Shown: piece after piece, positions 26,501 to 32,500 of the stretch
How positions within the stretch are numbered: position 1 is the stretch's first letter
Layout: each line of letters starts with the position of its first letter
NCBI GenBank assembly: GCA_903813345.2
Contig: CAIIXF020000008.1
Coordinates: 33,814,867 to 33,878,866 of the forward strand
DNA: 64,000 nt
Source of the DNA: Owenia fusiformis
Lineage: Eukaryota; Annelida; Polychaeta; Sabellida; Oweniidae
Direction of reading: 5' to 3'
Position numbers and translations under genes: made by a program
Notes under the pieces: generated by a model
What the model was told of the DNA's origin: nothing
Seen by the model: only the letters and a program-made list of their open reading frames with translations
The model's database searches: none

Positions 26501-29500
26501 CATTTAAATTTTTCGCAATTTCGACTCGAAATGCCTTGGAATGGTTTAAAAATAAAGACTTTACCAGATGCCTTCTTCACCAAGATGCATACAACATGGA
26601 ATATTATGCCTATTGTTGTTGGCACATGTTTTAAGAATCATGAATAAGTTATAGTACTGGCCCCATGAAAGTCCAAATTGAGTCGCTAAAACATGTGAAA
26701 AGTATGCGATCAACTTTCATTGTATTTAGTTTTGAGGGGGAGGGGGGGGGTCCAACTCAAAACTAGATTTATTTAGTTTCCTATCAGACATAGAACTTTT
26801 GATGCCTCCCCTTAAACATTTGTTTTTCAGGTTCTGAAGCGTGATCTTCAACGTTCCCTGAGGAAAAAGCGTCCCGGACATCTGCAGCAGTTTATCTTGC
26901 ATTGGGACAATGCCCCTACGCACACTGCAATCCTGACCAGCAACACAGTCCAAACACTTGGATTTCAACAACTTGAACATGCCCCTTATTCACCTGATCT
27001 TGCCCCCAGTGACTTTTATTTGTATGGGGAACTAAAAAGAAACCTTAGTGGAAATAATTTTCAATCCTGTGAGGAATTGAAAAATGCCGTAGTACTAGCC
27101 CTACAAGGAATGAGTTCTAATGGATTTAATTCTGTGTTCAAGGAATGGGTATCCAGACATGAGAAATGTGTTGCAAATGGTGGCAATTATGTAGAATGAA
27201 CTATTATTAGTAACTGTGCAATAGTATGATTTATATTGTTGTGAAATAAAATGTTGAGGATATAACAATTTCAGATCTTGTTGATATTTTGAGATTACGC
27301 ATTACACGTTAAGTAATTTGCCCCGGGTTACGCGATATCGGGTTACTATAGCAACCATAATTTCAACCAATGAAATGATTGAATTCCAATCTTTGAGATG
27401 GTAACTCAGAAATGTTGTGGGTACATGTATACCAAATTTCATGAAGATCTGATGAATACTTTTGAAATTACAACATCTTTGACGTTACTTCTGGATCACC
27501 CTGTATATAAAGTACTTTAGAACATACAGCATCCATGTGGGTTTATGAAATGAATTTATTCTTGATATCTGATTGGTTCATCTGGCCATGATGTGACACA
27601 TTTATGTTTAAGTACATCAAAGTTAAGGAGGTTGAACATATTACATTACAATGTATATATGCAATATTTTCTTATACCAATTATTCAAAAAAATGAAAAC
27701 ATCTCCATTACTCAATTTCATAGTATTGTATTTTCTGTTTAGGATTTTCAACACAAACAACTTGTGGATCAATCTCAACGCTATTCATCGTGTCGTAGAG
27801 GAACGCACCTTACATATGGAGATTATCGTTAATCCTAAGACATTAGACAACGGAGTTAATGTTATACAGTTGGAAACAGCCGTCGGAGCAGCCATTAAGT
27901 CATTTGACGGAGCTTTGGGTGAGTCTTTGTTCTAAAAATAAATCCTCAAGTCAGTCTCTTGTGCATAAATGTTCCCTGGTTTTTCATTTGCTAGTTGTTT
28001 TTCTCGTATTTTTTTTATTCATCAATACTTTTCATCTACATAGTATCAGCTCACAAATATAATCGGGCCAACATCCTCTTGGATGTACATGTATAAAGCC
28101 TTTTTATTACATTACTATTTGATGGTTTTTTTAATTGGAAAATTTCAGTGTAGTTATCATAGACATGGAAAAATTTCTATTTTATTTTCAATGATTGGAT
28201 TTATACTTGCATGATGTATATACTTTTAGGTATCAATGTACCGAGGAGCAGGTTCTTGCCTATGAAGAAGACGCAAGATTTAAAATTTTATACTTGCATG
28301 TATATACTTTTAGGTATCAATGTACCAAGAAGCAGGTTCTTGCCTGTGAAGAAGACACAAGATTTAAGATTTTATACTTGCATGTATATACTTTTAGGTA
28401 TCAATGTACCAAGGAGCAGGTTCTTGCCTGTGAAGAAGATAGAAGATTTAAGATTTTATACTTGCATGTATATACTTTTAGGTATCAATGTACCAAGGAG
28501 CAGGTTCTTGCCTGTGAAGAAGATACAAGATTTAAGATTTCATACTTGCATGTATATACTTTTAGGTATCAATGTACCAAGGAGCAGGTTCTTGCCTGTG
28601 AAAAAGACACAAGATTTAAGATTTTATACTTGCATGTATATACTTTTAGGTTTCAATGTACCAATAAGCAGGTTCTTGCCTGTGAAGAAGATGCAAGATT
28701 TAAGATTTTATACTTGCATGTATATACTTTTAGGTATCAATGTACCGAGGAGCAGGTTCTTGCCTGTGAAGAAGACGCAAGATTTCAGATTTTATACTTG
28801 CATGTATATACATGTACTTTTAGGTATCAATGTACCAAGGAGCAGGTTCTTGTGGAGAAGACGCAAGATTTAAGATTTTATACTTGCATGTATATACATG
28901 TACTTTTAGGTATCAATGTACCGAGGAACAGGTTCTTGTGGAGAAGACGCAAGATTTCAGATTTTATACTTACATGTATATACATGTACTTTTAGGTATC
29001 AATGTACCAAGGAGCAGGTTCTTGTGGAGAAGACGCAAGATTTCAGATTTTATACTTGCATGTATATACATGTACTTTTAGGTATCAATGTACCGAGGAA
29101 CAGGTTCTTGCCTGAGAAGACGCAAGATTTAAGATTTTATACTTGCATGTATATACTTTTAGGTATCAATGTTCTAAGAAGCAGGTTCTTGCCTGTGAAG
29201 AAGACACAAGATTTAAGATTTTATACTTGCATGTATATACATGTACTTTTAGGTATCAATGTACCGAGGAGCAGGTTCTTGCCTGTGAAGAAGACGCAAG
29301 ATTTCAGATTTTATACTTGCATGTATATACATGTACTTTTAGGTATCAATGTACCAAGGAGCAGGTTCTTGTGGAGAAGACGCAAGATTTAAGATTTTAT
29401 ACTTGCATGTATATACATGTACTTTTAGGTATCAATGTACCGAGGAACAGGTTCTTGCCTGTGAAGAAGACACAAGATTTAAGATTTTATACTTGCATGT

Positions 29501-32500
29501 ATATACTTTTAGGTATCAATGTACCGAGGAGCAGGTTCTTGTGGAGAAGACGCAAGATTTCAGATTTTATACTTGCATGTATATACATGTACTTTTAGGT
29601 ATCAATGTACCGAGGAACAGGTTCTTGCCTGTGAAGAAGACGCAAGATTTCAGATTTTATACTTGCATGTATATACTTTTAGGTATCAATGTTCTAAGAA
29701 GCAGGTTCTTGCCTGTGAAGAAGACACAAGATTTAAGATTTTATACTTGCATGTATATACTTTTAGGTATCAATGTACCAAGGAGCAGGTTCTTGCCTAT
29801 GAAGAAGATACAAGATTTAAGATTTTATACTTGCATGTATATACTTTTAGGTATCAATGTACCAAGGAGCAGGTTCTTGCCTGTGAAGAAGACGCAAGAT
29901 TTAAGATTTTATACTTGCATGTATATACTTTTAGGTATCAATGTACCAAGGAGCAGGTTCTTGCCTGTGAAGAAGACACAAGATTTAAGATTTTATGCAT
30001 GCATGTATATACTTTTAGGTATCAATGTACCAAGGAGCAGGTTCTTGCCTGTGAAGAAGACGCAAGATTTAAGATTTTATACTTGCATGTATATACATGT
30101 ACTTTTAGGTATCAATGTACCAAGGAGCAGGTTCTTGTGGAGAAGACGCAAGATTTAAGATTTTATACTTGCATGTATATACATGTACTTTTAGGTATCA
30201 ATGTACCGAGGAGCAGGTTCTTGCCTGTGAAGAAGACGCAAGATTTCAGATTTTATACTTGCATGTATATACATGTACTTTTAGGTATCAATGTACCAAG
30301 GAGCAGGTTCTTGTGGAGAAGACGCAAGATTTAAGATTTTATACTTGCATGTATATACATGTACTTTTAGGTATCAATGTACCGAGGAACAGGTTCTTGC
30401 CTGTGAAGAAGACACAAGATTTAAGATTTTATACTTGCATGTATATACTTTTAGGTATCAATGTACTGAGGAGCAGGTTCTTGTGGAGAAGACGCAAGAT
30501 TTCAGATTTTATACTTGCATGTATATACATGTACTTTTAGGTATCAATGTACCGAGGAACAGGTTCTTGCCTGTGAAGAAGACGCAAGATTTAAGATTTT
30601 ATACTTGCATGTATATACTTTTAGGTATCAATGTACCGAGGAACAGGTTCTTGCCTGTGAAGAAGACGCAAGATTTAAGATTTTATACTTGCATGTATAT
30701 ACTTTTAGGTATCAATGTTCTAAGAAGCAGGTTCTTGCCTGTGAAGAAGACACAAGATTTAAGATTTTATACTTGCATGTATATACTTTTAGGTATCAAT
30801 GTACCAAGGAGCAGGTTCTTGCCTATGAAGAAGATACAAGATTTAAGATTTTATACTTGCATGTATATACTTTTAGGTATCAATGTACCAAGGAGCAGGT
30901 TCTTGCCTGTGAAGAAGACGCAAGATTTAAGATTTTATACTTGCATGTATATACTTTTAGGTATCAATGTACCAAGGAGCAGGTTCTTGCCTGTGAAGAA
31001 GACACAAGATTTAAGATTTTATGCATGCATGTATATACTTTTAGGTATCAATGTACCAAGGAGCAGGTTCTTGCCTGTGAAGAAGACGCAAGATTTAAGA
31101 TTTTATACTTGCATGTATATACTTTTAGGTATCAATGTTCTAAGAAGCAGGTTCTTGCCTGTGAAGAAGACACAAGATTTAAGATTTTATACTTGCATGT
31201 ATATACTTTTAGGTATCAATGTACCAAGGAGCAGGTTCTTGCCTGTGAAGAAGATACAAGATTTAAGATTTTATACTTGCATGTATATACTTTTAGGTAT
31301 CAATGTACCAAGGAGCAGGTTCTTGCCTGTGAAGAAGACGCAAGATTTAAGATTTTATACTTGCATGTATATACTTTTAGGTATCAATGTACCAAGGAGC
31401 AGGTTCTTGCCTGTGAAGAAGACGCAAGATTTAAGATTTTATACTTGCATGTATATACTTTTAGGTATCAATGTACCAAGGAGCAGGTTCTTGCCTGTGA
31501 AGAAGACGCAAGATTTAAGATTTTATACTTGCATGTATATACTTTTAGGTATCAATGTACCAAGGAGCAGGTTCTTGTCTGTGAAGAAGACACAAGATTT
31601 AAGATTTTATACTTGCATGTATATACTTTTAGGTATCAATGTACCAAGGAGCAGGTTCTTGCCTGTGAAGAAGACGCAAGATTTACTGATAGTCATGAGT
31701 AATCTATACTTTATGAAACATGGTAGCTTGAGAATGAGTGAAAAGCGACAATTCTCAACCGTCCCTCTTGTGAAACTAGGAACACATTTTGATAAGGTTA
31801 GCATTAATAGATAAAACTCCCTTTGAATCAATCTTATGCATTTATGTCAAAATTAGCTCGAATTGGTAGTTTGAGAAAGAGAGAAAATGCGCTTTTTTGA
31901 AATAAAGCAAATAAAATCTTTCAACTTATAATTCTTCTAGACCGAGAGTTTTCTTTAAATTGCTCTTTGAATGAATAATTTATATTATTGTGCCTATTTT
32001 TTTCTTTGGGCCATGTATGAAGACAGTTACTCTCCTACAGTAGAAGATGGAGTAGACTGAAAAGGGGAGCAAATGCTTTAACTTCACCCAACTTTTTTTA
32101 GGTTAAAAGCTTCAGTAGCAGGTTTGCTAACGTACCAGACATCATGGAACTTGACCATCTCACTGTATCTGGGGATGTAACATTTGGCAAGAATGTATCA
32201 TTAAGGGTAGGTATATAGGCTTTGATTTGATTTGATTTGAAAACTATATTTATTCTGGGTAGCTCTATCAGTACAAAACTGGCCTTCCTAGAGGCCCAGT
32301 AAGTTCCTTGTATGGTGCACAAAATGGAATGTAGTACTGTATTAGCATAGTCATTCTTCTATTTATGAGACTGATTTTCAGTACATGAATGGATGTAGTA
32401 CAGATTCTCAATCAGAAATATTGATCTGCCCATTTGTGACATAGTTTTTGCAATTTTACCTACTTTTGCTACTTGATCTATTTTTAAAAGATGAGAATAA

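Follow-up and report, generated by a model that had tools for sequence, protein, structure and literature searches.

How does the spliceosome find one useful 3' splice site when an intron's end, together with the beginning of the next exon, stands in 41 nearly identical copies in a row? The question is raised by a 64,000-nt stretch of the annelid Owenia fusiformis genome (GenBank assembly GCA_903813345.2, contig CAIIXF020000008.1, positions 33,814,867 to 33,878,866, forward strand), referred to here as the window and numbered from its first letter. Within it, a minisatellite lies across an intron-exon boundary of UGP2, the gene for UTP-glucose-1-phosphate uridylyltransferase. The reading we favor, with a probability of roughly 0.6, is that of a tolerated passenger minisatellite, which a tandem duplication spanning the boundary would have created, while the spliceosome mainly uses the last acceptor.

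Thirteen exons were assembled in the window into a joined reading frame of 502 amino acids without a start, in which the array exon is the eleventh, and the gene is otherwise intact across them. The C-terminal 183 residues match the human UGP structure PDB 4r7p over their full length (E=3.7e-88) and the Pfam UDPGP domain with 225.8 bits, and by these matches the host gene of the array is UGP2. Donor scores given throughout come from a vertebrate U2 matrix. The gene parts that frame the array are as follows.

27743..27918, + strand: UGP2 exon 5' of the array, 176 nt, ending ...GALG one base into a codon; the peptide is present in the public protein P0122
27919..27926, + strand: donor GTGAGTCT of the array-holding intron, 8.6 bits
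31633..31796, + strand: functional exon of 164 nt that begins at acceptor 41 and ends ...FDK in the joined frame
31797..31802, + strand: donor GTTAGC after the functional exon, 6.9 bits, placed by the joined reading frame

The upstream exon ends ...GACGGAGCTTTGG and the array exon copies begin GTATCAATG... With use of the last acceptor, the array-holding intron spans 27919-31632 and measures 3714 nt; the array and its parts are as follows.

28200..31685, + strand: array, 41 copies of an 84-bp intron-exon boundary unit, by Tandem Repeats Finder (TRF) and motif count
28230, + strand: first acceptor, use of which would give a 311-nt intron and a stop-containing exon by frame translation
28824..30540, + strand: zone with all eight frame-breaking 86-bp units (units 8, 9, 10, 14, 16, 23, 25 and 27)
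30541..31632, + strand: units 28-40, 13 contiguous 84-bp units whose exon frame is stop-free (13 x 28 aa), within open reading frame 30285-31814

TRF reports a period of 84, 41.0 copies, 93% matches and a score of 5438, far beyond chance. Direct counting of the motif TTTTAG/GT[A/T]TCAATGT, where the first slash marks the splice point, yields 41 acceptors from 28230 to 31633, with spacings (n=40) of 84 (26), 86 (8), 90 (5) and 81 (1). Minisatellites consist of many units, each some 10-100 bp long, arranged head to tail, a description that fits 84 bp x 41.0. Each 84-bp unit opens with 53 nt that correspond to the beginning of the exon (GTATCAATGT...CAAGATTTA), followed by four junction bases, AAAT in the first of 40 units and AGAT in the other 39, and closes with 27 nt from the end of the intron (TTTATACTTGCATGTATATACTTTTAG). 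The intron end in each copy reads ..ATACTTTTAG and is joined to the first 53 bases of the UGP2 exon, such that AG/GT stands at the unit boundary in 41/41 copies. A CATGTA insertion lies directly 5' of the pyrimidine run in 13/41 acceptors, and the final 20 nt up to AG are identical in 25/41, the functional acceptor among them. The copy at 31633 is the only one that runs on into the exon: GATTTACTG is found once, at 31680, and base 54 past the acceptor is C in this copy alone, with A in 31/40 and T in 9/40 of the others. Over 53 nt, 7/40 upstream copies are identical to the functional exon; over 54 nt, none of the 40 is. A 301-base probe from the array end has at least 19 matches in the 498-Mb assembly, all inside the UGP2 array.

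These results largely bear out an earlier note on this DNA, which had named UGP2 as the host and described an array of its intron end joined to its exon start, with 41 near-identical 3' splice sites over 3.4 kb, the last of which (31633) gives the normal protein. Two details of that note are revised. The exon part is indeed repeated, with a length of 53 nt in place of the 54 coding bases proposed, and the UGP2 exon called exon 12 would be the twelfth only if one more exon lies upstream.

Twelve residues past the glycine whose codon the junction splits, the lysine of ...FLPVK lines up with residue 414 of 4r7p_A, which we take as human K396 because the chain has 526 residues and the human UGP protein 508. 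Passages of PMC5381698 describe K396 as a phosphate-coordinating residue of human UGP and report that K396A leaves 0.04% activity. Given this loss, this exon should begin cleanly in a large share of the mRNA. Each array unit repeats the active-site lysine region, and equal use of the 41 sites would make only 1 in 41 transcripts normal. A second UGP2 gene that relaxes constraint was considered and rejected: all five matches (5/5) of the C-terminal 183 aa in the 498-Mb assembly fall inside the window, and its ten UDPGP-domain matches comprise seven in the window and three at one locus on contig C6. The one exon tested at that locus matches UDP-N-acetylglucosamine pyrophosphorylase. One relative lacks the insert: the annelid Paralvinella protein P0128 reads GAIGINVPR unbroken. 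A junction-length pattern matched 16/120 proteins, all 16 with the same spacing.

Translation from each acceptor divides the array into two parts. Acceptors 1-27 all (27/41) reach a stop. Because 84 nt equal 28 codons and the unit carries no stop in the exon frame, acceptors 28-40 yield in-frame inserts of 1-13 units; with the functional site, 14/41 acceptors (copies 28-41, 30541-31633) read stop-free into the normal exon with 0-13 extra 28-aa blocks. Any acceptor of this block except the last places at least one copy of the active-site region directly before the true one. This contrast between a contiguous in-frame block (28-40) and stop-reaching acceptors (1-27) is what is new here. The open unit by itself is unremarkable, since 39% of shuffles of its intron-derived part are stop-free. 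All of the frame-breaking 86-bp units (8/40) lie 5' of copy 28, a placement with a naive chance of 0.029 that we do not count as selection because the units are copies of one another.

What, then, could direct splicing to the 41st acceptor? The identity of the final 20 nt in 25/41 copies means that these letters cannot single it out. The distance to donors does differ. The donor at 31797 lies 164 nt from the last acceptor and at least 248 nt from any other, and each upstream step lengthens the exon by 81-90 nt. Inspection of the array for competing donors reveals no 9-mer above 2.5 bits, the score of the unit's own donor half, TAG/GTATCA, and 31797 is the best GT site in 31633-32101 (6.9 bits, with 3.9 at 31723 and 4.7 at 32015). 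By comparison, 11/12 UGP2 donors score 2.8-10.4 bits; the twelfth (22837, GTATCCTTT) scores -3.0 on the U2 matrix because it looks U12-type. The intron it opens, 22837-23702, also carries CCTTAAC shortly 5' of its acceptor, in line with the U12-type consensus.

Under exon definition, an acceptor would pair with the next good donor, and the 41st acceptor would mainly be used. As the last acceptor alone lies within 164 nt of the donor, exon definition should favor it whatever the length of the array. A slip to one of the 13 nearest upstream acceptors would keep the frame and insert one or more 28-aa blocks. Acceptors beyond these run into a stop codon in the translated frames and would probably send the transcript to nonsense-mediated decay; leaky use would be expected to fall with distance from the last site. 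The array is thus probably tolerated because splicing mainly uses the 41st acceptor, with the repeats mostly a passenger. The earlier note had offered either a mechanism that favors the last site or a family of UGP2 forms with varying inserts; the former has a simple basis in exon definition, and the latter is possible, though unproven.

Several points weigh against a passenger array with last-site splicing. The acceptor in use is deduced from genomic letters, and exon definition in Owenia fusiformis is assumed. The first acceptor lies 311 nt from the upstream donor, a short intron that would be favored under intron definition, and it is transcribed 3.4 kb earlier, which first-come-first-served kinetics would favor. 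By score (6.9 bits), GTTAGC at 31797 comes ninth among the 12 UGP2 donors. Finally, among 26 84-mers the intron part of the unit is less diverse (pi 0.015) than the exon part (0.061), which could hint at retained acceptor function; variable sites number 5/36 in the intron-side part versus 13/48 in the first 48 nt, no significant difference (p=0.18).

RNA structure was considered as a selector and rejected, as single units of 84 and 90 nt show no folding advantage over shuffled sequence (z 0.14 and -0.41). Searches of the window for known RNA families and tRNAs returned none above threshold.

An approximately 80-bp segment spanning intron end and exon start would have been duplicated in tandem, and two short motifs mark its likely ends.

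28198..28203, + strand: GATTTA in the intron, a possible breakpoint of the first duplication, with microhomology to 31680-31685
31680..31685, + strand: second GATTTA, within the functional exon, where the repeated segment ends on its right side

The presence of GATTTA at both ends makes a microhomology-mediated tandem duplication the likely birth of the array. Growth to 41 copies would have followed by unequal exchange or slippage, block duplications included: exact internal repeats of 445 and 318 bp occur at offsets 1026 and 942, and the 40 units fall into 24 distinct types in patterned order. Copies 28-40 differ from the functional exon at a mean of 1.5 positions and copies 1-27 at 3.6, with a Spearman coefficient of -0.37 (p=0.019), the copies not being independent. 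Coding constraint on the upstream copies was examined and finds no support. Variant codons in the 31/40 units of 84 or 90 bp comprise 5 synonymous and 9 non-synonymous changes versus 30:110 possible (Fisher p=0.31), and 8/40 units break the frame. As far as sequence can tell, the array is an unconstrained minisatellite.

Large minisatellites of this kind are not rare in the Owenia fusiformis genome: 20 sampled 10-kb regions (200 kb) held two arrays with a period of at least 50 and at least 10 copies. The window itself has 13 merged array intervals (from 18 TRF rows), one of which overlaps a UGP2 exon. Since large arrays are not rare, it is no miracle that one struck a boundary; the survival of the gene is the interesting part. 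Two more large minisatellites occupy UGP2 introns, at 8161-9143 (29 bp x 33.9) and 20520-21862 (33 bp x 41.1).

Among the alternatives, the first to weigh is a real UGP2 isoform family, in which acceptors 28-41 are used comparably and give enzymes with 0-13 extra 28-aa active-site blocks. We consider this unlikely. The 14/41 stop-free acceptors are contiguous with the functional one, the last 13 units hold none of the eight frame-breaking units (the naive p=0.029 above), and these proximal copies are nearer the functional exon (mean 1.5 vs 3.6 differences). Yet only a few events probably lie behind the frame-breaking units, given 24 types among 40 units and the block repeats, so that the p value is overstated, and an open 84-bp unit arises easily, as the 39% of stop-free shuffles indicates. 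Insertion directly before K396 should, moreover, harm the enzyme. Protein searches were limited by length, with 229-275 aa and >890 aa outside their limits; among the best 120 of 2355 matches to a 509-aa extended frame, where coverage reaches at most 29%, no insert protein appears. In two UGP proteins that scored high against this frame, P0001 (Paragonimus kellicotti) and P0002 (Albugo candida), a larger duplicated block includes the same exon region; these are perhaps model or assembly duplications.

A stronger version, which we regard as distinctly unlikely, has a slipped minisatellite convert a constitutive intron-exon boundary into a generator of graded isoforms. All 14 acceptors at the end of the array would be usable and in frame and give a ladder of UGP2 enzymes with 0-13 extra blocks, and the 27 upstream acceptors would serve as a stop-codon sink through which array length tunes expression.

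Dual-specific or recursive splicing is improbable. Each AG/GT would act first as acceptor and then as donor, with units taken out singly or several together as 84-nt introns until the last unit is reached, as in the human polyubiquitin gene UBC. The motif is present in 41/41 copies, and passages of PMC10809524 describe such sites in the tandem repeats of UBC and VCX3A and report that weaker motifs suffice there than at single sites. The donor half in the UGP2 array nevertheless scores 2.5 bits, below the gene's 11 U2-type donors, and splicing from the strong upstream donor directly to the last site needs no intermediate.

A polymorphic array that acts as a hypomorphic allele is very improbable. 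Much UGP2 RNA would here be lost to stops, and other individuals would carry few copies. In keeping with this, 27/41 acceptors lead to a stop, and the public gene model ends at GALGINVP, approximately 14-16 nt past an array acceptor. That model, the unnamed partial Owenia fusiformis protein P0122 (383 aa), matches 76% of the query at 100% identity. Among the best 120 of 592 matches, where the top identity is 82%, the UGP2 C-terminal part has no Owenia model, and the best 120 of 2355 matches to the extended frame likewise name no Owenia protein with the array peptide. Passages of PMC9977687 describe an annotation that drew on both RNA-seq and ab initio predictions, and a genome from the sperm of one male; the carrier of the array thus reached adulthood, which counts against such an allele. 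Ambiguous read mapping alone can explain the shortened model: an end at the array would be expected if reads enter it and cannot be placed, and is silent on the copy used.

An assembly artefact, with wrong copy number or unit sequences, is very unlikely, for although Illumina reads were mapped back for polishing and can blur near-identical copies, the PacBio read N50 of 25.75-30.75 kb is approximately 7-9 times the array length (passages of PMC9977687), and the 24 distinct unit types stand in patterned order.

Other features of the gene and its surroundings were observed alongside. The last UGP2 exon is present twice, at 32837-32944 and 37199-37306, with 106/108 bases identical and both differences synonymous, within a 1283-column alignment that is 87.5% identical overall; the two copies may be alternative terminal exons that selection or gene conversion has preserved. 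A mariner-like element (25124-27505) lies in the intron before exon 27743-27918, with inverted repeats 25124-25314 and 27315-27505 that are 98.95% identical and transposase pieces that match HTH_48 and Transposase_1 over the cut-off and DDE_3 below it. A 443-aa open frame inside a UGP2 intron (12816-14144) has a reverse transcriptase match (RVT_1, 97.5 bits). Further downstream, identical 2223-bp direct repeats (49554-51776 and 60782-63004) enclose a single - strand open frame of 2563 aa, which matches reverse transcriptase, RNase H and integrase, and also protease at a score slightly below the cut-off. By its looks, 49554-63004 would be a very young long terminal repeat (LTR) retroelement. 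A tandem duplication of approximately 1450 bp at 46307-49204 is 99.86% identical and is either very recent or an assembly effect.

The UGP2 array offers a natural experiment on the selection of one site by the spliceosome from 41 nearly identical 3' splice sites. Work on competing 3' splice sites has for the most part relied on constructs with two or a few duplicated sites. Here, 41 sites, each at its own distance from a donor on either side, lie in the gene of a central metabolic enzyme for which no second copy was found in the assembly. The pattern of use would separate exon definition (the last site), first-come-first-served choice (the first) and stochastic choice (all) in one endogenous transcript. 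More broadly, the locus shows how a minisatellite can spread across a coding boundary and be retained there, and such an array may be an intermediate towards intron growth or UBC-like repeat genes.

Several known systems resemble parts of this arrangement. With intronic minisatellites or variable number tandem repeats, the array shares unit size, copy number and block duplications, and differs in that its unit holds a 3' splice site and coding sequence. Known ratchet points of recursive splicing are isolated sites in long introns with good donors. Like the zero-length exons of recursive splicing described in passages of PMC5126111, the array places adjoining 3' and 5' splice sites inside an intron; in contrast, its 41 sites have weak donors and follow one another every 81-90 nt in an intron of 3.7 kb, and the donor regenerated at each, TAG/GTATCA, scores 2.5 bits versus 2.8-10.4. 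The potato RdRp gene is reported to carry a tandem duplication of an intron-exon segment in passages of PMC4974935, which also cite a fission yeast case with multiple 24-bp copies and the ATP2A1 case; a search of the fission yeast paper PMC3629103 brought up no passage on the 24-bp copies. There, too, a junction-bearing segment (or AGGT in the model) is duplicated, and the extra copy can be intronic with the peptide unchanged. Such duplications, however, create a new intron from one or few copies, whereas 40 extra copies lengthen an existing intron in UGP2.

The earlier note knew of no described case of a boundary amplified to this degree. Our literature searches, several of them narrow, found no array of tens of intron-exon boundaries and nothing closer than UBC, such that the claim stands for tens of boundaries and yields to UBC, VCX3A, potato and fission yeast as comparable cases. 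By this comparison, the closest known system is the UBC polyubiquitin gene. According to passages of PMC10809524, human UBC has 9 units, with 3 to 46 in homologues of other species, and a tandem AG/GT array at its ubiquitin-unit boundaries is spliced stochastically, with VCX3A similar; each AG/GT acts as donor, acceptor or neither, which leads to an mRNA ladder. The same source reports that human introns measuring a multiple of a surrounding tandem repeat occur in 8.4-fold excess. The UGP2 array is alike in being a tandem repeat with AG/GT at its unit boundaries (41/41). The UBC unit length is a multiple of three, so that a unit can come or go without a frameshift; the same is true of 32/40 spacings in UGP2 (84, 90 and 81) but not of the other 8/40 (86). 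UBC units are complete coding monomers, whereas the UGP2 unit combines 53 of 84 nt of exon with 31 nt of junction and intron, and its array, with weak donor halves (2.5 bits), needs only the last copy for a normal protein.

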